A model generated the notes under the pieces. The model was not told the origin of the DNA and did no database searches. It saw nothing but the letters and a program-made list of their open reading frames with translations. A stretch of 33,223 nt of DNA from Singulisphaera sp. GP187 (GTDB taxonomy: Bacteria > Planctomycetota > Phycisphaerae > Phycisphaerales > SM1A02). Of this stretch, positions 124 through 30,079 are shown in pieces. Position 1 is the first letter of the stretch. Each line of letters begins with the position of its first letter. The position numbers were made by a program, and so were the translations under genes. The stretch lies in assembly GCA_945871445.1 (NCBI GenBank), contig CAMBWI010000023.1:1-33223 (forward strand). The letters are read 5' to 3'.

Positions 124-1403
124 GATCCCAGCATTCCCTTCAGCCATTGGAGTGCGGCAGGCAGTACGCTCTGTGGTGCAATCGCAGCTCCAGTTGCAAG
201 CACAACTCCAATGATGATCAAGATTGCGGCGATTGCCTTTGAGAGATCCTGACCTTTGAGCGATCCAATTTGATCTGGTTCGCCGGAGAGATATGCGCTT
301 GCCGCCATAAATTCTTCGCCGATCAATGTGTAATCACATGCGGCGACAAAGAATGGAAGCTGACTACTTTCGGCCGTTCCTGCAATCTGAATTGCGCCGA
401 TTGAATTTCCGGTCTCGGCCAAGATCAAACTCTCTGCAAAGAAGCAGCCCATATAAAAACAAGCAGCAGGTTTTTCGCGCACCATACGCCCAGAGACATA
501 CGCGACGAATCCAAACTGCTCATCGGTGATGTATCGGATTGAATCGGCGTTGTATGCATCTGCTCGACCTGCGGCAAGGTATGACGCTTGCACAGCTTCG
601 CGTGCTGCTTCCATAACCAACGATCGACTTGTCGGCACTTCGATCGCCGCGTCGTATTCCGCAGCTGTTCTAGAAACATTTCCCAGCACGGTCAATCCCG
701 CGACAGTCTGAATGTTGTCCATGTCTTGAATGCCTGGCACAAACAAAATCGATCGCCCCATTTCTGTGGCACGGCCAACTGCATCCTTGATCGCTTCGAG
801 TGCTGCGATGCGGCGAACTTTCATAGGTTGACCTCGACGCGCAGCGAGGATGAAATAGATCACGCAACCACACACGAACAAAATGGCGCAGAATAAAGGC
901 ATTTTTGCGCCAATGAAGAAGTTCCAGTGACCTCTCACCGCCGTCTTCGTCATCGTCACAGCACTTGAACCATTTGGACTGACCGCGGTCACACGGAAGA
1001 AATAAGCGGAATCGACATTGAGTTTCGATGCAACCGCACTTGTCTCTGCGATGGGTACTTCTGTAACCAAGATCCAAGGGCCTTGACCAGCTTCGACCAC
1101 TTCACTTCCCTCGACAATCCACTTCGTTGCAGAAGTTGTTCCTGCAACAGGTTGCCACGAAACTTTGATCACGCCTCCCGCGTCCCAAGGAACATCTGCT
1201 CCAGTGATCGTAAGCGCCGCAGGTGGCGCAGTGACTTCTTGGCTCAGTTCGTTCAGCGAAACATTGCTGGAGGTGCTTAGTTTGTTTTCAGTAGTGTTTT
1301 CAGCAGTGGTCGCAATTGCGCCAAAAGAGCCCTGCGCAATGACAGAAAGAATGAACGCAATCGAAAGAATCTGCCAGCGATTTGCGGTTTCAGTCCAGAC
1401 CAC
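120..1403 (-). CDS. Membrane protein with fibronectin type III region and DUF6754-like domain
   Basis: 427 residues. A hydrophobic N-terminal segment (about 10-28) is a signal peptide or anchor. Residues about 58-155 look like a fibronectin type III fold (Trp/Tyr/Phe spacing, and a late strand ending in RVTAVSPNG). Membrane segments follow at about 167-188 and 388-410. The cytoplasmic stretch between them (FVPGIQDMDNIQT, then repeated Ala-rich helices and a YISGR-like strand) resembles proteins annotated DUF6754. That family name is from memory of similar proteins, not from a search. No enzymatic motif is visible. The start is GTG at 1403: in-frame upstream codons contain no ATG/GTG before a stop, and a TATCTT box lies six bases upstream. 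It is coupled by ATGA overlap to the truncated membrane protein downstream. Function unknown; probably envelope-associated. Confidence 0.7.
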   Translation of the reverse strand: MVWTETANRWQILSIAFILSVIAQGSFGAIATTAENTTENKLSTSSNVSLNELSQEVTAPPAALTITGADVPWDAGGVIKVSWQPVAGTTSATKWIVEGSEVVEAGQGPWILVTEVPIAETSAVASKLNVDSAYFFRVTAVSPNGSSAVTMTKTAVRGHWNFFIGAKMPLFCAILFVCGCVIYFILAARRGQPMKVRRIAALEAIKDAVGRATEMGRSILFVPGIQDMDNIQTVAGLTVLGNVSRTAAEYDAAIEVPTSRSLVMEAAREAVQASYLAAGRADAYNADSIRYITDEQFGFVAYVSGRMVREKPAACFYMGCFFAESLILAETGNSIGAIQIAGTAESSQLPFFVAACDYTLIGEEFMAASAYLSGEPDQIGSLKGQDLSKAIAAILIIIGVVLATGAAIAPQSVLPAALQWLKGMLGS

Positions 1404-1409
1404 GAGAGC

Positions 1410-1415
1410 AAGATA
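1410..1415 (-). promoter_or_regulatory. Putative -10 box, leaderless type, for the 120-1403 gene
   Basis: TATCTT on the minus strand ends exactly six bases before the GTG start at 1403, with no Shine-Dalgarno sequence between. This matches the TAnnnT-N6-start pattern seen at several other unit heads in this window. No clear -35 element was found. Inference only. Confidence 0.4.
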
Positions 1416-1471
1416 GTCCCATTTCAGAATTCATGCGAACGCACCGCCCGCGCAAATTTCATCCCCCCAAT

Positions 1472-2599: not shown

Positions 2600-2626
2600 T
2601 TGGATTTGCTTTTATTTGTTGCGAGA

Positions 2627-4414: not shown

Positions 4415-4423
4415 GAACCAACA

Positions 4424-4429
4424 AGAGTA
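4424..4429 (-). promoter_or_regulatory. Possible -10 box for the mutL-like gene
   Basis: TACTCT on the minus strand, nine bases before the ATG at 4414. The spacing is longer than the six-base pattern at other genes, so support is weak. The intergenic stretch 4415-4497 shows nothing else. Confidence 0.25.
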
Positions 4430-4743: not shown

Positions 4744-5211
4744 TCACTTCTTCGTATCGCTGGCCTTGGTATCGCTGGCCTTCGTATCGCTGGCCTTGGT
4801 ATCGCTGGCCTCGGTATCGCTGGCTTTCGTATCGCTGGCTTTCGTATCGCTGGCCAAGCGCTGCTCTTCGAGCGCTTCAATTCGAAGGCACAAATATTCC
4901 ACCGCACCAGATCGCTCCAAAAATGTTGCGAGTGTCGACCATGTTGTTGGGTGGATGACAACCGAAACAAACGGCTGAAGAAAATGCATCGCTGCGGCTC
5001 CAACTCCAGAAAGCGGCCGACTGGATTCCAGAAAAAGCATCGCAGGCTGCGCCATTCTGCGCTTCACGATTTCCTGCGCTACGCGTTCGACAAGTTCTGC
5101 TTCATCTGGATTTGGCTTGGCAGGTCCTGGTGGCTCGATGTGAAATGCCTTTGCCCACCCTTTGCTCAATGCGCCGCGCATTCGCTGCCATGAATTTGAA
5201 TGATCGCTCAT
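4744..5211 (-). CDS. Unknown protein with C-terminal ASDTK pentapeptide repeats
   Basis: 155 residues from the ATG at 5211. The GTG two codons upstream is also possible, but the ATG gives a perfect ATGA overlap with the stop of the upstream gene. The N-terminal two thirds (SNSWQRMRGALSKGWAKAF, a charged helix EAELVERVAQEIVKRR, then a hydrophobic stretch FVSVVIHPTTWSTLATFL and a helix near LRIEALEEQ) resemble no family I know. The tail is seven tandem copies of Ala-Ser-Asp-Thr-Lys/Glu, then Lys-Lys-stop. The repeat is low complexity and hydrophilic and probably disordered. It is encoded by a 15-bp DNA repeat with only silent or near-silent differences, implying recent expansion. Translation is likely coupled to the membrane protein before it. 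Confidence 0.65.
   Translation of the reverse strand: MSDHSNSWQRMRGALSKGWAKAFHIEPPGPAKPNPDEAELVERVAQEIVKRRMAQPAMLFLESSRPLSGVGAAAMHFLQPFVSVVIHPTTWSTLATFLERSGAVEYLCLRIEALEEQRLASDTKASDTKASDTEASDTKASDTKASDTKASDTKK
4754..4858 (+). repeat. 15-bp tandem repeat, seven copies, in coding sequence
   Basis: Units begin with gtatcgctgg at 4754, 4769, 4784, 4799, 4814, 4829 and 4844. The last five bases vary slightly (ccttc, ccttg, cctcg, ctttc). The unit is a multiple of three, so copy number can change without breaking the minus-strand gene. Confidence 0.95.
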
Positions 5212-5706: not shown

Positions 5707-5712
5707 TACGCT
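5707..5712 (+). promoter_or_regulatory. Putative -10 box, leaderless type, for HAAO
   Basis: TACGCT followed by exactly six bases and the ATG at 5719, with no Shine-Dalgarno sequence. It would make the first base of the kynurenine-cluster mRNA the start codon. No good -35 at 16-18 bases. Confidence 0.45.
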
Positions 5713-5718: not shown

Positions 5719-6333
5719 ATGAGCACCATCAATCCAACCGCGGTTGTCAACGCGCCATTTCCTGCGAATGATTCGCTGGGCGATCCCACTGGTTGGGACG
5801 GCGCTGGCGGCGTCGCAAGCGCGATCAATTTGTCTGCGTGGACCGCTGCGAATCGTCACTTAATGGTGCCACCAGTATCAAACAAATATCTTTTTAGCGG
5901 CAAGGATTTCTTTGTGATGTTGATCGCTGGCCCAAATGCTCGGAACGATTTTCATATGACGAATTCCGAGGAATATTTTATGCAGCTGCAAGGTGATGTA
6001 TCCGTGCGCGTTCGTGATGCCCACGGAATACGCGACATTATTTTGCGCGAAGGCGAAGCAATGTTCATTCCTGGTGGAGTTCCACATCGACCACAGCGAG
6101 GACCCAACACGCTTGGACTTGTTGTTGAGCGCAGACGCCCTCCGACCGAAACTGAGCACATGATTTTTTTCTGTGAGAAGTGTGACGCATTGGTCTATGA
6201 CCAAGAATTTGCATGCTCTGACATCGTCAAGCATTTTCGCGACGCAATGGAAGCATTCTGGGCCGACCCGAAACTCTGCACGTGCCCATCGTGCGGAACT
6301 CGCGTTCCAAAGCCTGCGCCACGAACAGCGTGA
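5719..6333 (+). CDS. nbaC: 3-hydroxyanthranilate 3,4-dioxygenase
   Basis: 204 residues. It opens the ring of 3-hydroxyanthranilate to 2-amino-3-carboxymuconate semialdehyde, using Fe(II) in a cupin fold. His79, Glu85 and His123 occupy the iron-ligand positions, with the same 6- and 38-residue spacings as His51/Glu57/His95 of the Ralstonia enzyme. A rubredoxin-like site is formed by Cys152, Cys155, Cys189 and Cys192 (CEKC and CPSC), the second metal site typical of the bacterial enzymes. The protein carries about 28 extra N-terminal residues compared with the Ralstonia enzyme. The ATG at 5719 is nevertheless favoured by the six-base spacing to a TACGCT box. It is the first gene of the plus-strand kynurenine cluster; ACMSD, which uses its product, follows after 81 bases. 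Confidence 0.95.
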   Translation: MSTINPTAVVNAPFPANDSLGDPTGWDGAGGVASAINLSAWTAANRHLMVPPVSNKYLFSGKDFFVMLIAGPNARNDFHMTNSEEYFMQLQGDVSVRVRDAHGIRDIILREGEAMFIPGGVPHRPQRGPNTLGLVVERRRPPTETEHMIFFCEKCDALVYDQEFACSDIVKHFRDAMEAFWADPKLCTCPSCGTRVPKPAPRTA

Positions 6334-6402
6334 ATAGAAAAATATCTTTGCTTGCTTTGGCGCAAGCGCCGCTGCGAAGGAAATTACTGACGCACGAATC
6401 GC

Positions 6403-6408
6403 TAAACT
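6403..6408 (+). promoter_or_regulatory. Putative -10 box, leaderless type, for ACMSD
   Basis: TAAACT, then six bases, then the ATG at 6415, with no Shine-Dalgarno. It suggests an internal promoter within the kynurenine cluster. Just upstream (around 6379-6390) there is no recognisable -35. Confidence 0.4.
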
Positions 6409-6414
6409 CTCATT

Positions 6415-7431
6415 ATGCGGCCCCCGCGCACTATCGACCTTCATACGCACATGCTCCCCGAGCGGTGGCCTGACCTTCGAGAACGATATGGGTCGGGAGG
6501 CTGGGTTTCGCTCGACCACTGCGCACACTGTCGCGCTCGAATGATGATTGACGGCAAACTGTTCCGCGAAATCGAATCCAATTCCTGGGATCCTTCGCGG
6601 CGCGTTTTGGAATGCGATGCGGCTGGAGTTGATATGCAAGTGCTTTCCACTGTGCCGGTGATGTTTTCGTATGGTGCGAAAGCCACAGATGCACACGATT
6701 TGTCGCAGTTGCTCAACGACCACTTTGCAGGAGTTGTGCGAGCAATGCCCGATCGATTCATTGCTCTGGGAACGGTGCCAATGCAAGATGCCGCGCTTGC
6801 AACGCGCGAGTTGGAACGCTGCGTGAAACAACTTGGATTTCCTGGCGTGCAAATCGGAACCAATATCAACGGCCAAGACTTGGACGATCCCGCATTCGCA
6901 CCATTCTTCGCAGCGGCGGAAGAACTTGGCGCCGCGATTTTCGTGCATCCATGGGATGTGGTTGGACGCAATGAGATTCCGCGCTTCTGGATGCCTTGGC
7001 TGGTTGGAATGCCAGCGGAAACTACGCGCGCAATTTGCACGCTTGCATTCGGCGGCGTACTCGACCGACATCCCACACTTCGGATTTGTTTCGCGCATGG
7101 TGGCGGATCGTTCCCATACATGCTCGGTCGCATCGAGCATGGATTCAATGCGCGCCCAGACTTATGCGCGACGCATTCGAAGACGCCACCACGCGATCAT
7201 CTCAAGCGACTCTTCTTTGACAGTATTGTTCTTGATGATGAGGCGCTGCGATATCTCGTGCGAACTGTTGGTGCAGAGCGCATTGCAATGGGATCGGACT
7301 ATCCATTTCCGCTGGGCGAAATCCCACCCGGGAAATTACTGCGCGCAGCAGATTGGATTACAGATGCGCAGCGAGCTCGGATGCTGGCAGGGACTGCAAT
7401 TGAATTTCTTGGTTTAGATTTCTTGGCTTAG
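6415..7431 (+). CDS. nbaD: 2-amino-3-carboxymuconate-6-semialdehyde decarboxylase (ACMSD)
   Basis: 338 residues, amidohydrolase-superfamily TIM barrel. It decarboxylates the unstable product of HAAO to 2-aminomuconate semialdehyde and so keeps carbon out of quinolinate/NAD synthesis. Zinc-site residues are visible: His10 and His12 (DLHTH), His178 (FVHPW), His228 (FAHGGGSFPY) and Asp295 (GSDYPFPLGE). These closely match His9, His11, His177, His228 and Asp294 of the Pseudomonas enzyme. Length is normal. The stop codon TAG lies inside a 14-bp tandem repeat that runs on into the spacer before kynureninase, so the last few residues (LGLDFLA) are repeat-encoded. The position between HAAO and KynU fits a catabolic kynurenine operon. 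Confidence 0.95.
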   Translation: MRPPRTIDLHTHMLPERWPDLRERYGSGGWVSLDHCAHCRARMMIDGKLFREIESNSWDPSRRVLECDAAGVDMQVLSTVPVMFSYGAKATDAHDLSQLLNDHFAGVVRAMPDRFIALGTVPMQDAALATRELERCVKQLGFPGVQIGTNINGQDLDDPAFAPFFAAAEELGAAIFVHPWDVVGRNEIPRFWMPWLVGMPAETTRAICTLAFGGVLDRHPTLRICFAHGGGSFPYMLGRIEHGFNARPDLCATHSKTPPRDHLKRLFFDSIVLDDEALRYLVRTVGAERIAMGSDYPFPLGEIPPGKLLRAADWITDAQRARMLAGTAIEFLGLDFLA

Positions 7432-7481
7432 ATTTCTTGGTTTAAATTTCTTGGTTTAAATTTCTTGGCTTGAATTTTTGG
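7404..7481 (+). repeat. 14-bp minisatellite across the ACMSD stop codon
   Basis: Units start with atttcttgg at 7404, 7418, 7432, 7446 and 7460, with a degenerate sixth at 7474. The trailing five bases are tttag, cttag, tttaa, tttaa, cttga. Because 14 is not a multiple of three, each unit rotates the reading frame, and stops (TAG, TAA, TGA) occur in nearly every unit. Confidence 0.95.
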
Positions 7482-7493
7482 ATTGACCACAAC

Positions 7494-8795
7494 ATGACGC
7501 ATACTGCTCCCAAAACAATCTTTGATCTTGCGGCATCGGATATGAAGCCCACCCGCGATTTTGCACTCTGGTGCGATGCGCACGACCCCCTTGCGTCTTT
7601 TCGAGATGCGTTCGAGATTCCATTCAATGCAAAGGGCGAACCACTTGCGTATTTCGTTGGCAACTCACTTGGATTGATGGCGCGTGCAACGCGCGATCGC
7701 ATAAAAGAAGAACTTGATGATTGGTCTGCGATGGGCGCAGAAGGACATGTTCATGGCCTGCGTCCGTGGATTAAATATCACGAGTTTTTTAGGGAAAATC
7801 TCGCCGAATTGACTGGTGCGCTTGCGCATGAAGTCGTCGCAATGAATTCGCTCACTGTCAATTTGCATTTTCTGTTGATGAGTTTTTATCGTCCGCATGG
7901 ACAGCGACGACGAATCGTGATGGAGCGTGGCGCATTTCCAAGCGACCGATTTGCCGTGCATTCGTTTGTGCGTGCGATCGGTGGTGATCCAAGCGTCGAT
8001 GTGATCGAAGTCGCGCCACGCGATGGCGAAGAATGCTTACGACACGATGACATTGAGGCAGAGATCGCACGCCAAGGTGATGCACTTGCGCTCGTCATGT
8101 TTGGCGGCGTTCAGTACTACACAGGGCAAGTGCTCGATATTGCTCGCATCACGCGCGCAGCACATACCGTCGGTGCAAAGTGTGGATGGGATCTTGCGCA
8201 TGCCGTTGGCAATGTCGCACTTTCGCTGCATGACTGGAATGCTGACTTTGCCTGTTGGTGCTCGTACAAATATCTCAATGGCGGACCTGGCGCGGTCGCC
8301 GGCGCATTCATTCACGAGCGGCATCACAAAAATCCGCCACCACGACTTGAAGGTTGGTGGGGAACAAATCCTGCAACTCGATTTCAGATGGGACCGAACT
8401 TTGATCCATGTCCAGGTGCTGATGCCTGGCAAGTTTCCAATCCGCCAATTCTTTCGCTCGCTCCCCTGTTGGCAAGCTTCGATCAATTTCATCAAGCGAA
8501 GATGCCACGGCTGATTGCCAAAGCTCGAGCAATGACTGGGTTCATCGAACTCTCACTCCGCACGCGCGATGCGCAACATATTCGGGTGATCACGCCAAGT
8601 TCGACCAGCGAGCGAGGCTGTCAATTATCTCTCTGCATCAATCGCGATCCAGTCGCTGCACGAAAACTTTTCGATTCACTCCTTCCGCAAGGAATCGTCT
8701 GCGACTTCCGGCATCCAAGTGTCATCCGAATTGCGCCAGCGCCGCTGTACACGCGCTTCATTGATTGTTGGAGATTGATCGAAGCTCTAAGCTGA
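7494..8795 (+). CDS. kynU: Kynureninase
   Basis: 433 residues from the ATG at 7494; a TTG eight codons upstream is possible but lies in the repeat. This is a PLP enzyme of aminotransferase fold type I that cleaves kynurenine or 3-hydroxykynurenine to (3-hydroxy)anthranilate and alanine. The cofactor Lys is K259 in CWCSYKYLNGGPG. Other family signatures are FVGNSLGLM near the start, the loop AMNSLTVNLHFLL, the phosphate/aspartate region CGWDLAHAVGN, and a C-terminal QVSNPP segment. Length is slightly above typical bacterial KynU (about 415). No clear Shine-Dalgarno or -10 hexamer sits before the start. It is placed before KMO and after ACMSD, so here it probably acts mainly on 3-hydroxykynurenine. 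Confidence 0.95.
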   Translation: MTHTAPKTIFDLAASDMKPTRDFALWCDAHDPLASFRDAFEIPFNAKGEPLAYFVGNSLGLMARATRDRIKEELDDWSAMGAEGHVHGLRPWIKYHEFFRENLAELTGALAHEVVAMNSLTVNLHFLLMSFYRPHGQRRRIVMERGAFPSDRFAVHSFVRAIGGDPSVDVIEVAPRDGEECLRHDDIEAEIARQGDALALVMFGGVQYYTGQVLDIARITRAAHTVGAKCGWDLAHAVGNVALSLHDWNADFACWCSYKYLNGGPGAVAGAFIHERHHKNPPPRLEGWWGTNPATRFQMGPNFDPCPGADAWQVSNPPILSLAPLLASFDQFHQAKMPRLIAKARAMTGFIELSLRTRDAQHIRVITPSSTSERGCQLSLCINRDPVAARKLFDSLLPQGIVCDFRHPSVIRIAPAPLYTRFIDCWRLIEALS

Positions 8796-8818
8796 ACGAG
8801 CGAATCGCCATCGCGTCC

Positions 8819-8824
8819 TACACT
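8819..8824 (+). promoter_or_regulatory. Putative -10 box for kmo
   Basis: TACACT, seven bases before the ATG at 8832, within the 36-base gap between kynU and kmo. No Shine-Dalgarno is present. It may be an internal leaderless promoter. Confidence 0.35.
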
Positions 8825-8831
8825 TCACCTC

Positions 8832-10184
8832 ATGTCCAAAAGTGTCATCATCGTTGGTGCAGGACTGGCTGGATGCTTGCTTGCGGTCTATCTCGCTCGT
8901 GCGGGATGGAATGTTGATCTTCGTGAACGCCGCGGAGATCCGCGCGCACAAGGAAACATTGCTGGGCGTTCTATCAATCTTGCGATCAGCGCTCGTGGAC
9001 TGAAGGCTTTGCGACGAGCTGGTCTTGAAGAGACGATTCTCAAGGATGCGATTCGCATGCCTGGGCGAATGATCCATTCTCGTTCTAGAAACCTTGCATT
9101 TCAGAACTACAGCAGTGATCCATCGCACGCAATCCAAAGCGTCTCGCGCAGTGCGCTCAATTTGGCACTCTTGAATGCAGCTGCAGCAGAGTCGCGCGTG
9201 ACGATCACCTTCCAACAGAGGTGCGTGCATTTAGACGCAGCACGCGGCAGCGTTTCATTTATCGACGACAACACTTCTCAAGAAAGTTCAGTCAGTGCCG
9301 CCCTGATCGTGGGCGCTGATGGCGCATACAGCGCGTTACGTGGCATCATGCAGAAGAATGAAGGCTTTGATTATGACCAGTCGTGGCTCAGTCATGGTTA
9401 TAAAGAGATGTGCATTCCCGCTGTGACTTCCGGCAAGTATGCGCCGTTTGCGATGGAACCGAAAGCGCTTCATATTTGGCCGCGTGGCGGATCAATGATG
9501 ATCGCTCTTCCCAATCTTGATGGCTCATTCACATGCACGCTTTTTTGGCCAAACAAATCAACTGCGACCAACGCAAACGGATTCGATTCAATTCGCGACC
9601 CTGCGACTGCACGAGCGCATTTCGAGCGTGAATACTCTGATGCACTCGCGGTGATGCCGACATTCGACAACGACTTCGCAAAGAACCCTGTCGGCGCAAT
9701 GCTGACAATTCGCTGTCAACCTTGGTCGATGCACGGCCGAGCGGTTTTGCTTGGGGACGCCGCTCATGCCATCGTCCCATTCTTTGGCCAAGGTGCGAAC
9801 GCAAGTTTTGAAGATTGCGAATCGCTGACCGACGCACTTGCGGCGCACCCGAATGACATCGCACGCGCACTTGCCGCATACGAGAATGATCGAAAGCGCA
9901 ATGCAGACGCAATCGCCGAAATGGCGTTGACTAATTTTATAGAGATGCGCGATAAAACTGCATCGCGTCTCTTTCGACTGCGAAAGAAGTTCGAACACTT
10001 TCTGCACGGTGTCGTGCCACAGTTTTATACTCCGCGATACGACATGGTCAGCTTCGCAACGATTCCTTACGCAGATGCGCTTGCACGATCGCGCAAGCAA
10101 GACCTTGTGCTGACTGTTGCGGCGATCGCTGCGCCACTCTTGCTTATCGCATTTGCGCTTGTTGCGTGGAAGTTGTCTCGATGA
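8832..10184 (+). CDS. kmo: Kynurenine 3-monooxygenase, with C-terminal membrane anchor
   Basis: 450 residues. This FAD- and NADPH-dependent aromatic hydroxylase converts kynurenine to 3-hydroxykynurenine. The FAD dinucleotide motif is at 9-14 (VGAGLAG), with an Arg after the second strand (LRERRG). The second FAD motif GDAAHAIVPFFGQGANASFEDC begins near 308. Family-specific segments include GNIAGRSINLAISARGL and IMQKNEGFDYDQSWLSHGYKE. The last 27 residues form a hydrophobic helix (LTVAAIAAPLLLIAFALVAW) ending in Lys-Leu-Ser-Arg, a tail anchor reminiscent of the mitochondrial outer-membrane enzyme. The stop overlaps the ATG of the EamA transporter (ATGA), so both membrane-associated proteins are translationally coupled. 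Confidence 0.95.
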   Translation: MSKSVIIVGAGLAGCLLAVYLARAGWNVDLRERRGDPRAQGNIAGRSINLAISARGLKALRRAGLEETILKDAIRMPGRMIHSRSRNLAFQNYSSDPSHAIQSVSRSALNLALLNAAAAESRVTITFQQRCVHLDAARGSVSFIDDNTSQESSVSAALIVGADGAYSALRGIMQKNEGFDYDQSWLSHGYKEMCIPAVTSGKYAPFAMEPKALHIWPRGGSMMIALPNLDGSFTCTLFWPNKSTATNANGFDSIRDPATARAHFEREYSDALAVMPTFDNDFAKNPVGAMLTIRCQPWSMHGRAVLLGDAAHAIVPFFGQGANASFEDCESLTDALAAHPNDIARALAAYENDRKRNADAIAEMALTNFIEMRDKTASRLFRLRKKFEHFLHGVVPQFYTPRYDMVSFATIPYADALARSRKQDLVLTVAAIAAPLLLIAFALVAWKLSR

Positions 10185-11149: not shown

Positions 11150-11270
11150 TGAACATCACAATCTGCCAAGATAAACCAGCTTGGCCATACTCCACCAGAT
11201 CCGTTTTTCTCTAGCGTTCATCAAGTCAAGACAACCGTTGTTTCACGCCGACCATATCCTTACACCCACG

Positions 11271-16118: not shown

Positions 16119-16588
16119 GAACGAGAGTTTACCGAAGCGGGAAATGTGCGGTATCGCACTCCAGCCTCCGCAAACAACTCGCATGCCAAATCATGTGATC
16201 GCTTCCAATACTCATCGCCTTCGCCTGAAACTTCATATGTCACGACTTCGACGAGCCCTGCTTGAATAATCGCCAGCGAACACTGCACGCAAGGACTGAA
16301 AGTGGCATACATCGTGCATCCAACTGGACTGACTCCGTTGCGTGCACACTGCACGATCGCATTCAGTTCTGCGTGGCAGATCAAGTCATACTTCACAGGT
16401 CGCTGAAGTCGCTCGGGATGATCAGCGATCCCCTGCGGTAATCCATTAAAACCTGTGCTGATGATCTGCTTGGACGGTGAGACGATCACTGCGCCAACTC
16501 CGCGCGATGGATCCTTGCTCCACGTTGCGATTCGCCCCGCGAGTTCGAGAAATCGTAAATGCCAATGATCGGAAAGTTGGGGTGCCAT
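16115..16588 (-). CDS. dCMP deaminase family protein
   Basis: 157 residues. Zinc-dependent deaminase fold: HAELNAI gives His72 and the proton-shuttling Glu74, and SPCVQC gives Cys100 and Cys103. The N-terminal WSKDPSRGVGAVIVS and ISTGFNGLPQGIADH match the dCMP deaminase/ComEB group, which makes dUMP for thymidylate synthesis. The activity could extend to other cytosine nucleotides. The gene starts 13 bases after the protease-like gene and its end overlaps the DUF1579 gene by ATGA. It looks like a housekeeping enzyme carried in a mixed operon. Confidence 0.88.
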   Translation of the reverse strand: MAPQLSDHWHLRFLELAGRIATWSKDPSRGVGAVIVSPSKQIISTGFNGLPQGIADHPERLQRPVKYDLICHAELNAIVQCARNGVSPVGCTMYATFSPCVQCSLAIIQAGLVEVVTYEVSGEGDEYWKRSHDLACELFAEAGVRYRTFPASVNSRS

Positions 16589-21102: not shown

Positions 21103-21768
21103 CTATTTCTGCACTCTCAGTTCGCGCTGTGCTGGAAAAACTTTATCAGTCATTCCATCTTGAAACTCCAACTTCGCAGTAATGCTGCCCTGACAATGCC
21201 AGTCCGCCTTTTCTAGTGGAATCTCGAATGTGTAATGACTCCCAAACATCCCCGATCGCCAGGCATCGCGAACTTGGCCTGGCGAAAAATCTGCTTGACC
21301 AAGTGTTTGGGATTTCCCGCCAACTGGCAGTTCGAAGATTGAAATTTTCACACTTCCGACAATCTGCAGAAAGCGGCCAAGGCCATCTGATGGTTCGAGA
21401 TAGACCCTTGCAATACACCGACTATCCAAAGCACTTGATTTGGCTTCGCCATCCGCTTCGGAGACAGTCTTAACCGTCAGAAATCCACTCTTATCGCCAA
21501 TTTGCACCATTGCAACTTGAGGAGTTGCGCCAAGAATTGCTGGGTCAATCGAGGACTTTTCCTGCGCCGCCTTCGCAGATTGTGCGAGTTGTTGTTCCAG
21601 TTCGACCTGCTTCGCTTCGGCGGATTTCACTTTCTCCTGCAGATCACGAACTTGTCGACGCAGCGCATCATTCTGGTTGGGGGTCATGATCGTTGGATTG
21701 CAACCACACACGATCATCATGGATGTGATTGCGACAATTGATATTGCCCGCTGAAGTGTCTCGTTCAT
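21103..21768 (-). CDS. Lipoprotein with coiled coil and beta-rich C-terminal domain
   Basis: 221 residues. Signal sequence with a lipobox at Cys23 (VCGC). A heptad-like coiled coil follows at about 35-72 (LRRQVRDLQEKVKSAEAKQ). The C-terminal part, about 85-215, is beta-rich (VAMVQIGDKSGFLTVK, ARVYLEPSDGLGRFLQ, TAKLEFQDGMTDKVFP) and suggests a C2-like or immunoglobulin-like sandwich; no named family is certain. AGAAGGAG four bases before the ATG is the strongest Shine-Dalgarno in the window. The ATG overlaps the rex stop (ATGA), so it is translated from the rex message. Location: membrane-anchored, outside the cytoplasm. Confidence 0.78.
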   Translation of the reverse strand: MNETLQRAISIVAITSMMIVCGCNPTIMTPNQNDALRRQVRDLQEKVKSAEAKQVELEQQLAQSAKAAQEKSSIDPAILGATPQVAMVQIGDKSGFLTVKTVSEADGEAKSSALDSRCIARVYLEPSDGLGRFLQIVGSVKISIFELPVGGKSQTLGQADFSPGQVRDAWRSGMFGSHYTFEIPLEKADWHCQGSITAKLEFQDGMTDKVFPAQRELRVQK

Positions 21769-22448
21769 GCCGCTCCTTCTGAGATCAAACGCATTTGATC
21801 ACGAATTGAAACATCCATCGAAAGTTGCTCAAGTGCGACGCTCACATCAATATTTGTCACGCTGACTCCTTCTGTGACTGAGATTCTCATCGGCGCAAAG
21901 TTGAGGATTCCTCGAATACCAGCGTCACACAATTGCGTTGCGACAGATTGTGCTGCAGACCGAGGGACTGCCAGAATTCCAATCGCAACGCGGTGCGTTC
22001 GTATGGCTTTGCGAAGTGCGCTTGTCGGCTGAACCTTCAAGGTGCCAATGCGCTTCCCCTCCATCCGTGGATTGGCATCGAAAATGGCAGAGATTAAAAA
22101 ACCATCCTGTGCAAACCCGCCATACGCCAATAGAGCGCGACCGATATTGCCAACTCCCACCAAGACTGTGGACCAGCGACGATTCGCACCAATGACTCGA
22201 CGAATCGATTCGTTCATCTTGACACAGTTGTAACCCACCCCAGCTCTGCCTGCTTCGCTCGCTTGTCGTGATTGAACGACCCACGCAAGATCTTTGCGAA
22301 CTTGTGCGCTCGAAAGTCCAAGTTTTTCCCCCAATTCACGCGAACTGAGTGTTGGCTGTCCTTGAGCGATCAAGGGCTGAATCTCGCGCAGATACAAACT
22401 GAGTCGTTGCGCAGTTGGTCGGGGTATTCGTCGAACCGTTGGTGGCAC
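21765..22448 (-). CDS. rex: Redox-sensing transcriptional repressor Rex
   Basis: 227 residues from a GTG at 22448; upstream in-frame codons reach TAG without another start. The N-terminal winged helix contains PRPTAQRLSLYLREIQ, LSSRELGEKLGLSSAQVRKDLAW and GVGYN. The Rossmann domain has VLVGVGNIGRALL (98-103) and FDAN, and ends ILNFAPM...VTNIDVSVALEQL, all diagnostic of Rex, which senses the NADH/NAD+ ratio. The usual FG..G..G wing is altered and about six residues longer (VVQSRQASEAGRAGVGYN). A TAGAAT box lies exactly six bases upstream. It is the first gene of a run with two lipoproteins and an amidase-fold protein, and diverges from metF across 28 bases, so it may control itself and metF. 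Confidence 0.93.
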   Translation of the reverse strand: MPPTVRRIPRPTAQRLSLYLREIQPLIAQGQPTLSSRELGEKLGLSSAQVRKDLAWVVQSRQASEAGRAGVGYNCVKMNESIRRVIGANRRWSTVLVGVGNIGRALLAYGGFAQDGFLISAIFDANPRMEGKRIGTLKVQPTSALRKAIRTHRVAIGILAVPRSAAQSVATQLCDAGIRGILNFAPMRISVTEGVSVTNIDVSVALEQLSMDVSIRDQMRLISEGAA

Positions 22449-22454
22449 TTCATC

Positions 22455-22460
22455 ATTCTA
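22455..22460 (-). promoter_or_regulatory. Putative -10 box, leaderless type, for rex
   Basis: TAGAAT (minus strand), exactly six bases before the GTG start at 22448. It overlaps the palindrome TCTAG-TG-CTAGA (22457-22468) at the centre of the rex/metF gap. Confidence 0.5.
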
Positions 22461-22464
22461 GTGC

Positions 22465-22470
22465 TAGAGT
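22465..22470 (+). promoter_or_regulatory. Putative -10 box, leaderless type, for metF
   Basis: TAGAGT, exactly six bases before the ATG at 22477. It is divergent from the rex box; the two hexamers are only four bases apart, so the promoters would compete or be co-repressed. Confidence 0.45.
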
Positions 22471-22476
22471 GTCCGC

Positions 22477-23385
22477 ATGCATCTTGTTGATGTTCTTGCT
22501 CGCGACTCATTCACAGCAAGCTTTGAGTTTTTCCCGCCAAAGAACGAGGCTAGCTGGGATTTGTTCTTTTCAACCATCAAAGATTTTGGGAAGTTACGAC
22601 CATCGTTTGTCTCGGTGACATATGGCGCTGGAGGATCGACGCGGCAATTCACTCATGATCTTGTTGTGCGGATTGGCAAAGATACGGGACTTGATGCGAT
22701 GCCACACTTGACCTGTGTCAATCATTCTGCAAATGACATAGACCAAATTTTATTGCGATATGCAGAAGCTGGAGTCTCAAATATTCTTGCGCTTCGCGGC
22801 GATTTGCCAAACGGAACATCAACACTTGCGAGTGACTATTCGTATGCGACTGATCTCGTTCGCGCAGTACGATCATTTGCCCAGTCTGGTCGACATCCAG
22901 ATCTGCGCGGATTTGGTATCGCTGTGGCGGGTTATCCAGAGGGACATCCGCAAACTCCCAACACTCTCCTTCAGATGGATCACTTGAAAGCAAAATGCGA
23001 TGCGGGCGCAGACTTAATCATCTCGCAACTTTTCTTCGATAATCATGCGTTTTATGATTGGCGCGAACGATGTGAATTGGCTGGAATCAAGACGCCGATT
23101 CTTGCTGGCATTATGCCGATCACATCAGTAACTGGATTGAAGCGTATGGCAGAGTTGGCTGGCGGAACAAAGTTTCCTGCAGCGCTCTTGCGTGCGGTGC
23201 GTCGCGCGCAAGATGATGCTGATGCCGTCAGTCGAGTTGGAATTCATTGGGCGACCGAACAATGTCGCGATCTCTTGGATCACGGCGTTCGCGGGATTCA
23301 TTTTTACACACTCAACCGCAGCGATGCGACGCGAAAGATTTATGAAAATCTTGGCGTCAGTTCTACGGACGCGCTTCGCCAGTGA
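22477..23385 (+). CDS. metF: Methylenetetrahydrofolate reductase
   Basis: 302 residues, complete. FAD TIM-barrel enzyme reducing 5,10-methylene- to 5-methyl-tetrahydrofolate for methionine synthesis. Signatures: SFEFFPPKN with the catalytic Glu, VSVTYGAGGSTR, MPHLTCVNHS, ILALRGDLP, AGADLIISQLFFDN, PILAGIMPITS and the C-terminal GIHFYTLNRSDATRKI. Cytoplasmic. No Shine-Dalgarno; a TAGAGT box lies six bases upstream. The 3' end overlaps the end of the convergent 678-residue protein gene by 23 bases, so transcripts must run into each other. Confidence 0.95.
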   Translation: MHLVDVLARDSFTASFEFFPPKNEASWDLFFSTIKDFGKLRPSFVSVTYGAGGSTRQFTHDLVVRIGKDTGLDAMPHLTCVNHSANDIDQILLRYAEAGVSNILALRGDLPNGTSTLASDYSYATDLVRAVRSFAQSGRHPDLRGFGIAVAGYPEGHPQTPNTLLQMDHLKAKCDAGADLIISQLFFDNHAFYDWRERCELAGIKTPILAGIMPITSVTGLKRMAELAGGTKFPAALLRAVRRAQDDADAVSRVGIHWATEQCRDLLDHGVRGIHFYTLNRSDATRKIYENLGVSSTDALRQ

Positions 23386-25399
23386 TTGGCGCGGGCGCGG
23401 GTGCGACAATTGGCGCTGGCGCTGGCGCTGGTGCGGGCGCGGCAATTGGTGCTGGCGCGGGTGCGACAATTGGCGCGGGCTCGGAAATTGGCGCTGGCGC
23501 GGGTGGGACAATTGGCGCTGGCGCGGAAATTGGCGCTGGCGCGATAGGAATTTCCGCAGGAATTGGCTGCGCCGTAGGATTTGTAGATCGAAGCCAAATC
23601 GCTCGCAAGACTTCAGTCAGAAGTTGGTCGTTTGGATTACGCGACAGAATTTCCAGTCCTTTTTCTACCAAAGTTTTGTCGCCAAGTTGATGACCAACAT
23701 ACGCAGCGACGAGACCATAATCAGCGAAATATTTTGAACCTTCACTCATCGTGAGAGAGTCTGCAGCAATAAAGCGTAGACGCTCTTCTGAACCGAGAAT
23801 GTCAAGACTGTATTTAGTATCGATCATCTCTGGCCAGGTCATGAACAGACGGCGCAGTGACATCGCAGCGGAAACTTGAAGACCAGAAGCAACTTGACTG
23901 TTCACCAATCCTGCCACAGGAAGTGGATTCGAAGGAGCAATCAATGCACCAGATGTAAATGCCCGCTCGGCGGTGAGATAATACTTCCCACGCATTGACT
24001 GATCGCCAGATTGAAGCATTATATCAAGAGCTTCTTTTGTGCCCCCATCGAGTTGAGAGATCATCTGCCCGTGAGCCATGAGCAAATACGCATCGTCACC
24101 AGTCAGCTTTCGAACTTTTTTCGCTTGAGGTTTTGGCGAGTTAGTGGCAGATGATAGACCTGGATTTGAATCATCACTCTTTGGGGCATTTAGATCTTTC
24201 GGCGCATTTGACGCATCTGTAGTTCCAGATTGCTCCGTCGCTACAGAAGTTTGGGATTGAATGACCTCTTCACCATTTGATGACTTCGCAGTTCGAGAAC
24301 CGAGCAATCGTTCTGTCTCGTCGATTGGTGTGGCAGGATTCATATCAAATCCATCGCGAATCTTTTGAATAACTGCACCAGTCGCTCGCAAAGAATCGAT
24401 ATCAACAGGAGTATCTTCTGCAACGATCTCTCCCTGCATTCGTTTGTATCTATTCCCAACCCCAGCCAAAACGCGGTCGTACGGAGTTTTGACTTGCGCA
24501 ACTTGTTTGATTTCGCGCATTCCTTGACGCATTTCAATTGGTTGCTTCGGCGCTCCACTCGCAGTCGATGGAGTTTGAGAATCTAGTTTTGCGCCAGTTG
24601 CCATGGCACTCTCTGTGCCTTCTTCGCCTGTGAGATTGACGATCCCAGACAAATAAGAGCGTTGAAGTTTTTTACCATTCGCACGCCCTGAACGCAGATC
24701 CGCGCGCATCAGTGCGCTGCCATATACCCCATAGTTGAGCGATTCGATGAGATCAGTGCCTGGAACAGCAACAATACCAATGAATGGACTGGAGATTATT
24801 CGCAAAGGCCGTTGATCTGCAGTACGCATCATGGACAACGTAGTTGGTTGATACATCATCGAAAGATCATTGGTCGTTGAAGACTGACGTGTCAACAAAT
24901 CCAATTCCATTCGAGAATTATTTACTGCAGATTGTGCTGTTGGTGTGAACAAAGCACTATCCCATCCTGCACGCGACGTTCCTGCAACTGCGCCGGATGC
25001 CGCGGTTGTGCCGATTCCAGATGCCACGAAATCTCTGCGATACGCCGTTGCACCAATTCCGGTCGCCACACTAAATCGATCGTTCATTGGGATCGCGGCG
25101 ATGGATCTTGCGCTTGAAGTTGCTGCATTTGCGCGAAAGGCTTGTGTCGTCTCACCACCTGTTGCTCCACGAAAATCATCGGCAGCTGTATAGCCCACTG
25201 AACCTCGGAAACCACGTCCACCCGCAACATCGCCCGTGACCACGAGATTTCTTGATCGATAATCTTGCGTTGCTCGAGGAGCATTCGAGGAGGTGCCTTG
25301 TTGCAACGAGCGATCAAGCGCACCACCGTTTCCAACTTGCAAATTTCCATCGAGAGCGTTTTGCGCCAAGACAAGAGAAATGAACATCGCACTGAACAT
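23363..25399 (-). CDS. Large exported protein with Pro/Ala repeat tail, unknown
   Basis: 678 residues. The first 13 residues are hydrophobic (MFSAMFISLVLAQ), a very short signal-like stretch, so export is probable but not certain. The N-terminal 180 residues are Gly/Ala/Ser-rich with repeated GIGTTAASG-like patterns. A middle region (about 190-370) contains RIISSPFIGIVAVPGTDLIESLNYGVY and NRYKRMQGEIVAEDTP. Residues about 440-610 are helical (DDAYLLMAHGQMISQLDGG, EKGLEILSRNPNDQLLTEVL) and look like tetratricopeptide-style packing. The last 60 residues are Ala-Pro-Ala-Pro-Ile repeats. I do not recognise the family. A TACACT box sits six bases before the ATG, divergent from the anti-sigma-like gene across 23 bases. 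Confidence 0.75.
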   Translation of the reverse strand: MFSAMFISLVLAQNALDGNLQVGNGGALDRSLQQGTSSNAPRATQDYRSRNLVVTGDVAGGRGFRGSVGYTAADDFRGATGGETTQAFRANAATSSARSIAAIPMNDRFSVATGIGATAYRRDFVASGIGTTAASGAVAGTSRAGWDSALFTPTAQSAVNNSRMELDLLTRQSSTTNDLSMMYQPTTLSMMRTADQRPLRIISSPFIGIVAVPGTDLIESLNYGVYGSALMRADLRSGRANGKKLQRSYLSGIVNLTGEEGTESAMATGAKLDSQTPSTASGAPKQPIEMRQGMREIKQVAQVKTPYDRVLAGVGNRYKRMQGEIVAEDTPVDIDSLRATGAVIQKIRDGFDMNPATPIDETERLLGSRTAKSSNGEEVIQSQTSVATEQSGTTDASNAPKDLNAPKSDDSNPGLSSATNSPKPQAKKVRKLTGDDAYLLMAHGQMISQLDGGTKEALDIMLQSGDQSMRGKYYLTAERAFTSGALIAPSNPLPVAGLVNSQVASGLQVSAAMSLRRLFMTWPEMIDTKYSLDILGSEERLRFIAADSLTMSEGSKYFADYGLVAAYVGHQLGDKTLVEKGLEILSRNPNDQLLTEVLRAIWLRSTNPTAQPIPAEIPIAPAPISAPAPIVPPAPAPISEPAPIVAPAPAPIAAPAPAPAPAPIVAPAPAPITGEARP
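23386..23555 (+). repeat. Imperfect GC-rich repeat encoding the Pro/Ala tail
   Basis: Irregular tandem array of ggcgctggcgcggg / acaattggcgc units. On the minus strand it encodes runs of Ala-Pro-Ala-Pro with Ile/Val/Ser/Glu breaks; the plus strand reads as Gly-Ala repeats, which is a shadow frame. Array boundaries are approximate. Confidence 0.85.
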
Positions 25400-25405
25400 G
25401 CTTCA

Positions 25406-25411
25406 AGTGTA
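25406..25411 (-). promoter_or_regulatory. Putative -10 box, leaderless type, for the 678-residue protein gene
   Basis: TACACT (minus strand), exactly six bases before the ATG at 25399. It shares the palindrome TGTACA (25408-25413) with an opposing TACAAC lying seven bases before the plus-strand ATG at 25423. Confidence 0.45.
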
Positions 25412-25422
25412 CAACTCGCACC

Positions 25423-26049
25423 ATGTTGAAGCGCATTTTTTCTTCGAAGCGCTCGATCAGTCCAATCCCGCTGACGATTGCGTTGGCGATTGTTGCGGGA
25501 AGCGTACTGATCGGCGTTTTCGGTATGCGACTGCAAGAACGCGATTATGGATCGTTGCTGCCACTTGCTGATATGGCAGATTCCGCACGACAGATTCAAT
25601 TGCGAATGCAACTTGAAGCGATTCACCGTCCAACTGAATCACCAACGCCAACACGCGGCGAACTCGCCGATCTTGTCAGTTCAACGATCAAAAGCGAATG
25701 GCGACCGCCAGATCTTTCTGCGAAGGGATTCGTGCCAATTTTGGCGGGAAAAGCAATTCTCTTTGGAGATCAGGTTGGTATCACAATTCTGTATGAACGA
25801 GCGGGAGAGTCTGCTGATCGTTTCTTAGCGCTCTTCGTCACAAGCGATCACGGCCAGTTTGCATCCTTCGATGAATTCGGAAGAATTGAACCATTCTCAA
25901 CAAATCGCTCGATCATTGAGCGCGATGATGAAACGGATCCTGATTCGAGTGCGACGCTTGTCTTCAGCGACGGCGATTTGCTTTTTCTTGCTCGAGCAGA
26001 TGATGTCGCCACGCTGGACGAGATTCGAGGCGATCTCGGTGCTCCATAA
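25423..26049 (+). CDS. Single-pass membrane protein resembling anti-sigma factor C-termini
   Basis: 208 residues. A basic cytoplasmic tail (MLKRIFSSKRS) is followed by one membrane helix (about 16-35). The extracytoplasmic part has a helix (LADMADSARQIQLRMQLEAI), a strand-rich domain (FVPILAGKAILFGDQVGITILYERAG, FLALFVTSD) and an ending LVFSDGDLLFLARADDVATLDEI. The final two strands plus helix resemble the periplasmic domain of planctomycete anti-sigma-like proteins, but no zinc-binding anti-sigma motif is present and no sigma gene is adjacent. It diverges from the large repeat-tailed protein and precedes metG by 69 bases. Treat as unknown membrane protein. Confidence 0.7.
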   Translation: MLKRIFSSKRSISPIPLTIALAIVAGSVLIGVFGMRLQERDYGSLLPLADMADSARQIQLRMQLEAIHRPTESPTPTRGELADLVSSTIKSEWRPPDLSAKGFVPILAGKAILFGDQVGITILYERAGESADRFLALFVTSDHGQFASFDEFGRIEPFSTNRSIIERDDETDPDSSATLVFSDGDLLFLARADDVATLDEIRGDLGAP

Positions 26050-26118
26050 AATCAAGTCGATGGCCGCTGGGCATACCGCTCGGCATGATGGCATGAGTGC
26101 TCTACTATCTCGATTCGA

Positions 26119-27699: not shown

Positions 27700-27738
27700 A
27701 CTATTCGCAATTCGATTTCTATCCTGTGATTCGCACGC

Positions 27739-28407: not shown

Positions 28408-28436
28408 ATTTTTTACTTGCCAAAGCAAGTCCTTTT
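28408..28436 (-). promoter_or_regulatory. Shine-Dalgarno separated from its start by a hairpin
   Basis: On the minus strand: AAAAGG, then ACTTGC-TTTG-GCAAGT (perfect 6-bp stem, 4-base loop), then AAAAAAT and the ATG at 28407. Unfolded, the ribosome site is too far away; folded, the hairpin brings AAAGG to seven bases from the start. Inference, comparable in principle to the T4 gene 38 initiation site. Confidence 0.5.
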
Positions 28437-28470
28437 CTCTCAACCTCTACTGAACAAATCTGACATATGA

Positions 28471-28498
28471 ATTATGTCCCCAGAGTTGAGAAAGTCAA
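28471..28498 (-). promoter_or_regulatory. Sigma-70 type promoter for the PEP-CTERM-like gene
   Basis: TTGACT (28493-28498), a 16-base spacer and CATAAT (28471-28476), each five of six to consensus. It predicts a 5' leader of about 55-60 bases containing the ribosome-site hairpin. The best conventional promoter seen in the window. Confidence 0.65.
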
Positions 28499-28537
28499 AA
28501 GAAACCAAGCAAATTCCCGTAAAATGCGGCGCGTTTT

Positions 28538-30067
28538 TTAGTACGCCTTCGCCCAAATCACCCTTTGAGGGCTCAAAGCGCCAGTTATCACGCACTTTCC
28601 AGGCTCATTCCCAACTTCGAGCGGGATGCAGCGAACGGTCACACCAAGTCGATCTTTAATCTGCGCTTCAACTTTAGGGTCGCCACAGAAGTGTGCAAGT
28701 GCAAAACCACCATGAATTGGTGTTGGCACATTCTCTGCCACCTTGGGCGCAGAAAAATATTCTTCGAACTCTTTCGCATCATCAATCACTTTCGTATTTG
28801 CGATTCGAAAATCGTTTGCGCGTTTAAAAAGTCCATCTTGAATCTCTTGCAGAAGTGCAGAAATCCCCTGAATGAAATCGCCACGCTTGACAGCCAATTT
28901 TTCCTTATGCGGTTTATCACGCCGCGCCATAAAGACACTGTCAGCAGCCATATCGCGAGGACCAACTTCGACTCGCACAGGAACACCCTTCTTGATCCAA
29001 TTCCATGCCTTATCGCCGCCGCGCATATCACGCTCATCAAGCTGCACTTGCACTGGTCGACCATCGAATGATTGTTTGCGAAGTTCATCTGCAAGCGAAC
29101 GCGTCCAAGCTTGAATCGCCGCTGTATCTTCGGGCTTGTGAACGACGGGAATAATCACCACATGTGCGGGAGCCAACTTGGGCGGCAAGATCAAACCATC
29201 ATCATCGGAGTGAGTCATAATCATCGCGCCGACAAGTCGAGTGCTGACTCCCCACGAAGTTGTCCAAGCAAACTGGCGTTCCCCCTGCGCATCCAAGAAT
29301 TGAATCTCGCTTGACTTCGCAAAGTTCTGTCCCAAGAAATGGCTCGTTCCAGCTTGAAGCGCGCGGCGATCTTGCATCATCGCTTCAATGCAATACGTAT
29401 CGACCGCTCCTGGGAATCGCTCGCCATCGGTCTTGCGACCTTGCAGAACAGGCATCGCCATCCAGCCCTCTGCGAAGTTGGCGTACACCTTGAGCATCTT
29501 CATCGTCTCTTCAACTGCTTCTTCACGGGTCGCATGAGCAGTGTGACCTTCTTGCCAAAGGAATTCTGTTGTTCGCAGAAAAAGTCGAGTCCTCATTTCC
29601 CACCGAACAACATTTGCCCATTGATTGATGAGCAACGGCAAATCGCGATAACTCTGAACCCACTTTGCGTATGTCGCGCCGATGATTGTTTCTGAAGTTG
29701 GGCGGACCACAAGTGGTTCCTCTAATTCTCCAGCAGGAACAAGCTTTCCATCGGGCCCCATTTCCAGTCTGTGATGGGTGACGACCGCACATTCCTTTGC
29801 AAATCCGTCAACATGCGCCGCTTCTTTTTCCAAGAACGACACAGGAATAAAAAGTGGGAAATATGCGTTGCTATGCCCAGTCTCTTTGAACATTCCATCC
29901 AAGACTCGCTGCATATTTTCCCAAATCGCATATCCCCAAGGCTTGATGACCATGCATCCACGAACCGCAGAATTTTCTGCAAGATCCGCAGCGCGAACTA
30001 CTTGTTGATACCACTCAGAATAGTTTTCAGAACGCGTTGGAGTGATCGCCGTCGTTGGGTTTGCCAT
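28538..30067 (-). CDS. proS: Prolyl-tRNA synthetase (archaeal/eukaryotic type)
   Basis: 509 residues from the ATG at 30067 (a GTG directly before is less likely). Class II synthetase lacking the editing insertion of the E. coli type. It has a start-proximal NYSEWYQQVVRAADLAENS, motif 2 RTRLFLRTTEFLWQEGHTAH, the substrate region LVVRPTSETIIG and motif 3 GLILPPKLAPAHVVIIP with the anticodon-binding domain behind it. It ends ...IWAKAY, the Tyr-terminated tail of the short archaeal-like ProRS, with a C-terminal domain where only some zinc Cys are present (FCGD, KCVI). The TATGCT box six bases upstream fits the ATG choice. Downstream of a CHAD gene, 39 bases apart. Confidence 0.95.
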   Translation of the reverse strand: MANPTTAITPTRSENYSEWYQQVVRAADLAENSAVRGCMVIKPWGYAIWENMQRVLDGMFKETGHSNAYFPLFIPVSFLEKEAAHVDGFAKECAVVTHHRLEMGPDGKLVPAGELEEPLVVRPTSETIIGATYAKWVQSYRDLPLLINQWANVVRWEMRTRLFLRTTEFLWQEGHTAHATREEAVEETMKMLKVYANFAEGWMAMPVLQGRKTDGERFPGAVDTYCIEAMMQDRRALQAGTSHFLGQNFAKSSEIQFLDAQGERQFAWTTSWGVSTRLVGAMIMTHSDDDGLILPPKLAPAHVVIIPVVHKPEDTAAIQAWTRSLADELRKQSFDGRPVQVQLDERDMRGGDKAWNWIKKGVPVRVEVGPRDMAADSVFMARRDKPHKEKLAVKRGDFIQGISALLQEIQDGLFKRANDFRIANTKVIDDAKEFEEYFSAPKVAENVPTPIHGGFALAHFCGDPKVEAQIKDRLGVTVRCIPLEVGNEPGKCVITGALSPQRVIWAKAY

Positions 30068-30073
30068 CACCCA

Positions 30074-30079
30074 AGCATA
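30074..30079 (-). promoter_or_regulatory. Putative -10 box, leaderless type, for proS
   Basis: TATGCT (minus strand), then six bases and the ATG at 30067; no Shine-Dalgarno. Lies in the 42-base gap after the CHAD gene. Confidence 0.4.

Follow-up and report, generated by a model that had tools for sequence, protein, structure and literature searches.

TAnnnT boxes at a fixed distance from start codons point to leaderless genes in a planctomycete genome, probably of the order Phycisphaerales

The stretch of DNA considered here, called the window throughout, is a contig of 33,223 nucleotides (CAMBWI010000023.1, contig C23) from a 2.26 Mb assembly of 96 contigs and 82% completeness deposited as Singulisphaera sp. 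GP187 (GCA_945871445.1). The host is an uncultured planctomycete, probably of the order Phycisphaerales. Seven genes of the window, encoding a DUF6754 protein, 3-hydroxyanthranilate dioxygenase (HAAO), an ACMSD-like amidohydrolase, a rex-type redox repressor, methylenetetrahydrofolate reductase (metF), a 678-residue protein and prolyl-tRNA synthetase (proS), are each preceded by a hexamer of the form TAnnnT with a six-base spacer to the start codon, its first base lying at position -12 (Table 1). A first-pass annotation of the window had proposed from this spacing that leaderless genes are widespread. All seven hexamers are found where it placed them, and the spacing for proS fits the ATG at 30067, not the GTG at 30070. 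The seven genes also lack a Shine-Dalgarno sequence as it claimed, with no AAGG, AGGA, GGAG or GAGG at -20 to -4, and the three Shine-Dalgarno sites that it described for operon-internal genes (at 21773-21780, before 21096 and before 12759) are present. A set of boxes at looser spacing was given correctly for kmo (7 bases), the mutL-like gene (9), metG (10) and AMSDH (10), but the protease gene, said to have its box nine to ten bases away, has TAGCAT seven bases before ATG 18836.

Beyond the window, TAnnnT was counted by offset in 40 stretches that together with it cover 820 of the 2258 kb (36%) of the genome. A dicodon model supplied the gene calls, and each start was set from the coding score and the type of start codon, blind to the upstream sequence. 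A gene was taken as unit-leading (385 of 654) if it stands in divergent orientation or if over 60 bp separate it from the gene before it on the same strand, and the background is the mean TAnnnT count per offset from -40 to -18. The dominant peak lies at -12, as the first-pass annotation had anticipated, where 42 of the 385 unit leaders carry TAnnnT against a background of 4.17 (Poisson P ~1e-27). A shoulder of 15, 15 and 21 boxes follows at -13, -14 and -15, and the inner offsets -11, -10 and -9 hold 2, 5 and 5. Offsets -15 to -12 combined give 93 boxes against 16.7 expected, an excess of about a fifth of unit leaders; of the 214 sides of divergent pairs, 68 have a box at -15 to -11 against about 12, an excess of about a quarter, both fractions being estimates before correction for wrong starts. 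The -12 box is most frequent in divergent leaders (31/214, background 2.35) but rare in genes that overlap or abut the upstream gene (2/99, background 0.30). Removing the window contig leaves 37 of 367 (background 4.09); the signal persists, and chance confined to the window can be set aside. A chance expectation of 1 in 64 at one offset, as used in the first-pass annotation, is conservative, since the measured background of 4.17/385 is about 1 in 92. Its tally of seven exact cases among about 18 unit leaders is matched in the denominator by the motif-blind starts, which give 18 leaders on the contig, but only five of these are at -12: ACMSD drops out with a blind start at 6451, not 6415, and proS is placed in the class of 21-60 bp gaps. 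In this genome, the box is TA followed by a third base that is usually G or C, a fourth without preference, a fifth that is C or A, and a final T; at a G+C content of 0.50 it favours TAnnCT or TAnnAT. A raw whole-genome count of TANNNTNNNNNNATG shows no excess (383 against 382 for the reversed pattern); only gene-anchored counts are informative.

The same element emerges from an unseeded search by expectation-maximisation, in which two 7-mer motifs were started from random seeds with free position over -46 to -1. The leaders of the genome itself gave TAcaCTt, commonest at -12, with a weight of 0.29 and a log gain of 290 against 90 for shuffled bases. Escherichia coli and a pool of planctomycetes from outside the order each gave a Shine-Dalgarno motif as one of the two (aAGGAAa or cAGGAaa). 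From a pool of genus relatives came nCTtGcn and taGAAag, the latter with a peak at -12, and from a pool of loci around metG came TacnATc and nAaGaAn, each with a peak at -12; both pools contain some overlapping or orthologous stretches, and their counts are not independent. Searches of single samples returned Shine-Dalgarno in E. coli and, among others, TACgAT at -12 in one genome (G057).

The box is conserved in relatives. Start alignment yielded 87 distinct upstreams for orthologues of the seven genes, which are not independent events because the species are related. The box begins at -12 in 64 of them, at -13 in 10 and at -14 in 6, and offsets -45 to -17 (29 in all) hold 7 matches between them. 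Loci with an alignment that fell short of the first ten residues, or with no start nearby, were left out. The T, A and T are retained, while the three middle bases and the flanks vary. By gene, the box is at -12 in 14/15 orthologues of proS (-13 in 1/15), 15/17 of metF (-13 in 2/17), 11/14 of HAAO (-13 in 3/14) and 12/17 of rex (-14 in 1/17), where two of the 12 use a start nine bases downstream of the aligned position. It is at -12 in all three DUF6754 orthologues counted, a fourth (L281) being left out as aligned on a wrong start. The 678-residue protein gene is looser, with 3 of 12 orthologues at -12, 4 at -13 and 5 at -14. A view that does not depend on the motif is given by 201 start-aligned leader pairs (44 genes, window genes included), in which identity is highest at -11 and -12 (0.78 and 0.71). 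When pairs with TAnnnT at -12 are taken away, the 125 that remain still have their highest values at -11, -12 or -8 (0.71, 0.66 and 0.69), while 53 pairs of internal genes have their maximum at -10 to -8, the Shine-Dalgarno position. ACMSD amounts to a natural experiment: its box is at -12 in six of nine orthologues, and in the other three, in which the ACMSD start and the HAAO stop codon, as read by eye, share one base (TGATG), it is absent, so that the box is lost where ACMSD joins an operon.

Table 1. Putative -10 boxes, the genes behind them and related hexamers in the window (positions are those of the window).
Feature	Position	Strand	Remarks
Putative -10 box TATCTT	1410..1415	-	6 bases before GTG 1403, DUF6754 gene
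DUF6754 protein gene, predicted leaderless	120..1403	-	Pfam PF20539
Putative -10 box TACGCT	5707..5712	+	6 bases before ATG 5719, HAAO
3-hydroxyanthranilate dioxygenase gene (HAAO), predicted leaderless	5719..6333	+	Pfam PF06052
Putative -10 box TAAACT	6403..6408	+	6 bases before ATG 6415, ACMSD
ACMSD-like amidohydrolase gene, predicted leaderless	6415..7431	+	Pfam PF04909; name ACMSD from the first-pass annotation
TACACT	8819..8824	+	7 bases before kmo ATG 8832
TAAACT	16126..16131	-	7 bases before ATG 16118, 302-residue protein; absent from the first-pass list
Putative -10 box TAGAAT	22455..22460	-	6 bases before GTG 22448, rex
rex-type redox repressor gene, predicted leaderless	21765..22448	-	Pfam PF06971, PF02629
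Putative -10 box TAGAGT	22465..22470	+	6 bases before ATG 22477, metF
metF (methylenetetrahydrofolate reductase) gene, predicted leaderless	22477..23385	+	Pfam PF02219
Putative -10 box TACACT	25406..25411	-	6 bases before ATG 25399, 678-residue protein
678-residue protein gene, predicted leaderless	23363..25399	-	no Pfam match at E 1e-5
TACAAC, possible off-consensus -10	25410..25415	+	for ATG 25423
TACTAT	26103..26108	+	10 bases before metG ATG 26119; longer spacer
Putative -10 box TATGCT	30074..30079	-	6 bases before ATG 30067, proS
proS (prolyl-tRNA synthetase) gene, predicted leaderless	28538..30067	-	Pfam PF09180, PF00587, PF03129

Ribosome-binding features differ between genes with the box and operon-internal genes. 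A Shine-Dalgarno 4-mer precedes 3 of the 42 genes with a -12 box in the genome itself versus 65 of 175 operon-internal genes, and the former figure is at background level, given 42/385 leaders and 20/175 internal genes with such a 4-mer in a control region. Start codons of the -12 genes in this and ten other genomes of the order are ATG in 64 cases, GTG in 17 and TTG in none, versus 57 TTG starts among 933 other leaders (Fisher P 0.011); for the genome alone TTG occurs in 0/42 and 21/343, respectively. The lack of TTG among -12 genes would place a purine at the predicted first transcribed base. Every one of the eight 16S ends read has the anti-Shine-Dalgarno CCTCC; two of these ends belong to genus relatives of the window, in which it is intact. 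A 16S match was obtained in 19 of 41 genomes searched, with none in the genome of the window. An open reading frame with six S1 repeats lies on contig C13.

The TAnnnT signal extends through the pooled order and resembles that of a Deinococcus control. Genus relatives, the genome itself excluded, have the box at -12 in 15 of 187 leaders (background 1.43), other genera of the family in 11 of 212 (0.87) and four other families of the order in 13 of 230 (1.04). The control, plasmid MP1 of Deinococcus radiodurans, has 6 of 75 (0.57). Four pooled planctomycete genomes outside the order give 4 of 190, which is not significant (background 3.13, P 0.38), and three 50-kb regions of E. coli K-12 give 0 of 81 (background 1.74). 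A second survey used 80 stretches around metG, the best 80 of 196 confirmed matches, with 57-93% identity of the metG protein. Across nine strata of these loci 59 of 642 leaders have a box at -12, two further strata (2 and 5 loci) being left out as too short; the loci are not independent because all surround metG.

From the DNA itself, a conserved -10-like element is present before these genes, being fixed in offset, enriched, conserved and free of an accompanying Shine-Dalgarno sequence. By inference, it most probably functions as a promoter, with a transcription start at the start codon and leaderless translation. That sigma70-type -10 boxes start leaderless mRNAs in about a fifth of unit leaders and a quarter of divergent ones is considered very likely, and the leaderless reading of the first-pass annotation gains support from the offset peak, the concentration in divergent leaders, the loss at ACMSD, the conservation in the genus, the missing Shine-Dalgarno sequences and the absence of TTG. 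The hexamers would serve as -10 elements of housekeeping sigma70-type promoters, and RNA polymerase would take the first base of that codon, the A or G of the start, as +1. The resulting mRNA would carry neither a 5' leader nor a Shine-Dalgarno sequence, and the ribosome would engage its 5'-terminal AUG or GUG directly. Two modes of initiation would then operate in the same cell, with 5'-terminal starts at the head of many transcription units and Shine-Dalgarno sequences for many internal genes. Mycobacterium tuberculosis likewise has leaderless transcripts beside Shine-Dalgarno genes. With six bases between box and start codon, transcription is expected to begin on that codon's first base, given the geometry of known leaderless genes (PMC3160421) and an optimal distance of 7 bp from -10 element to start (PMC12825309).

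One alternative is that the peak reflects the choice of starts, in-frame stop codons or composition. Counted from the start codon, -12 and -15 fall in frame, TAG and TAA stops could supply the TA there, and the starts are predictions. Such an artefact is nonetheless extremely improbable. The subset TA[CT]nnT, which cannot be an in-frame stop, peaks as well (23 of 385 at -12 against 2.17), which eliminates in-frame stops as the source, and the other in-frame offsets -18 and -9 are flat (6 and 5 against 4.17). The same pipeline finds no -12 box in E. coli, and this together with the pool from outside the order removes a general effect of composition; moreover, 80 of the 87 orthologous upstreams have the box at -14 to -12. 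A second alternative takes the hexamer as a signal that recruits ribosomes to a leadered mRNA, either AT-rich and dependent on bS1 or otherwise independent of Shine-Dalgarno, and not as a promoter. Nakagawa et al. 2017 could not tell leaderless from RPS1 signals in planctomycetes (PMC5397173), a six-repeat S1 frame is present, and the box also precedes some operon-internal genes. Against it, the box is strongest in divergent leaders, rare in overlapping or abutting operon genes and missing from the three ACMSD orthologues that overlap HAAO. The spacing of T-A-nnn-T is sharp and not diffusely AT-rich, and its geometry is identical in the Deinococcus control. This alternative is judged very unlikely.

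A third alternative accepts real -10 boxes but sets the transcription start a few bases upstream, which would yield near-leaderless mRNAs with leaders of 1 to 5 bases. It draws on the shoulder from -13 to -15 and on the metG box at -16, but the six-base spacer is dominant and none of the 81 -12 genes starts with TTG, and it appears unlikely. For the boxes at -13 to -15 and that of metG at -16, some leaders of 1 to 4 bases are possible, and these boxes count against a strictly leaderless reading. Several further points weigh on the same side. Operon-internal genes have the -12 box in 9 of 175 cases (background 0.61), most of all those 1-20 bp behind their neighbour (7/76 against 0.30), where the boxes are partly stop codons (TA[CT]nnT in 1/76), and in one small stratum of the metG loci the box precedes 4 of 7 internal genes. 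In another of these strata, of middle G+C content (L033-L046), -17 equals -12 with 7 boxes each in 60 leaders; the -17 boxes are perhaps those of metG orthologues. The -35 signal is slight: at least 4 matches to TTGACA at a spacer of 17 are found in a fraction of 0.12 of -12 genes versus 0.06 of all leaders. In the unseeded search, the pool of other families gave a Shine-Dalgarno motif and an uninformative one, and most smaller single samples yielded noise. Two genomes of the order are not significant singly among ten other samples (G010, 1/53; G051, 1/62), and one outside the order is nominally positive (G091, 2/52, P 0.008), so the order boundary of the trait is provisional. Finally, the gene finder is home-made, and the counts for the genome come from 36% of an assembly that is 82% complete.

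Some divergent genes of the window are separated by very short spacers. Between rex and metF, 28 bp separate the start codons (22448-22477), and the two boxes stand back to back across GTGC. The arrangement A(T/G)TCTA-GTGC-TAGAGT recurs in 10 of 17 metF upstreams, four with ATTCTA as in the window and six with AGTCTA. The 678-residue protein gene and the gene starting at 25423 are separated by 23 bp (25399-25423), with boxes that overlap by TA. Putative -10 boxes on opposite strands thus adjoin at 22455-22470 and overlap at 25406-25415, and many relatives are alike. In the second pair TACAAC is off consensus; GTACAAC occurs near the start of the 25423 gene in all nine aligned orthologues. Divergent gaps of 15-40 bp account for 16/107 pairs in the genome and for 8/52 when three relatives from its genus are taken together. 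They are rare elsewhere: seven further genomes of the order have 1/106, those outside the order 0/36, E. coli 1/19 and Deinococcus MP1 1/18.

These observations raise the possibility, put forward tentatively and with some doubt, that leaderless transcription shrinks regulatory DNA in this genus. In a share of divergent genes, spacers of 15-40 bp would hold adjoining or overlapping boxes, start codons would double as transcription starts, any -35 contact would fall inside the coding sequence of the partner, and polymerase would serve one gene at a time. If so, the shrunken rex/metF spacer would tie a redox repressor to its neighbour. Against this suggestion, boxes are found on both sides in only some of the 15-40 bp gaps, and there is no pairing beyond chance: both sides are boxed in 11 of 107 divergent pairs, against 10.8 expected if they were independent. 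A shared symmetric box beyond chance is accordingly unsupported genome-wide, which leaves the short gaps as the one unusual feature. Pairs with at least one box do have shorter gaps, weakly (P 0.036). With short gaps boxed only in part and no coupling between sides, the most economical interpretation is that leaderless promoters do no more than permit short gaps.

Other boxes in the window depart from the six-base spacer. The gene for the 302-residue protein has TAnnnT at -13 in six of six aligned orthologues, in one of them when a start lying 18 bases further downstream than the aligned one is used. For metG, 12 aligned orthologues have it at -16 in eight cases and at -14, -15, -15 and -17 in the others; the main position lies four bases further out than that of the main class (window 26103-26118). 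Three aligned upstreams are available for the protease gene, two of them with a box at -12, and kmo and the kynureninase gene have no usable aligned orthologue upstreams. A kynurenine-pathway cluster lies at 5719-13160, for which Pfam matches cover a 3-HAO, an ACMSD-type amidohydrolase and an FAD-binding kmo candidate, the remaining names being those of the first-pass annotation. The 678-residue protein has no Pfam match at E 1e-5, and an imperfect GGCGCTGGCGCGGGTGCGACAATT-type repeat is visible by eye in the part of its gene that encodes the C-terminal portion (23385-23550). Short tandem repeats of TATCGCTGGCC-type and TTTCTTGGTTTAAA-type are likewise seen by eye at 4750-4860 and 7425-7475.

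If confirmed, leaderless initiation in these genomes would place a planctomycete order among the lineages that depend on leaderless genes. Tools for start prediction that consider Shine-Dalgarno sequences only may misplace some starts in the many environmental genomes of this group. The extent to which 5'-terminal start codons serve a ribosome competent for Shine-Dalgarno recognition becomes a testable statement, and leaderless starts may explain the very short divergent spacers in these small genomes. The mechanism is known from other bacteria, and it seems that the lineage is new to it. Among the papers listed in literature searches, no title or opening lines of an abstract describe leaderless genes for Phycisphaerales, in agreement with the first-pass annotation. 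The StartLink paper (PMC9581028) puts at 21.6% the share of bacterial species for which GeneMarkS-2 predicted leaderless transcription, and predictions of that program may cover the group. Nakagawa et al. 2017 had a single planctomycete in their set and, for the phylum, put forward 'leaderless mRNA and/or RPS1' (PMC5397173). In the available parts of two other studies, Phycisphaerae have a single mention, in a table of anti-Shine-Dalgarno classes (PMC10783764), and no clear spacer range is given for Planctomycetes (PMC2784483).

Among the closest known systems are the TA-led genes of Zheng et al. 2011, in which TANNNT lies about 12 bp upstream of the start, measured from the first T, and is concentrated in certain lineages (PMC3160421). 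The offset is the same as here. Planctomycetes are not named among the leaderless groups in the accessible text of that paper, and its groups of medium G+C content have TAtaaT, whereas the present genome, at 0.50, favours TAnnCT or TAnnAT. In Deinococcus-Thermus, Zhong et al. 2025 describe a -10 region next to the open reading frame that gives leaderless mRNA (PMC12340547); the placement is alike, but that phylum is unrelated and was studied by experiment, while the present case is built on sequence. For M. tuberculosis, a member of the Actinobacteria, Cortes et al. 2013 obtained an extensive set of leaderless transcripts with mapped 5' ends (PMC3898074), whereas those of the present genome are predicted from sequence. 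The closely set divergent boxes may have a counterpart in the bidirectional promoters of E. coli, in which -10 elements on opposite strands are shared or adjoin and start sites are commonly spaced by 18, 10 or 23 bp (PMC12825309). The putative boxes of the window are set in a similar way, with the difference that the predicted start sites would themselves be the start codons of two protein genes.

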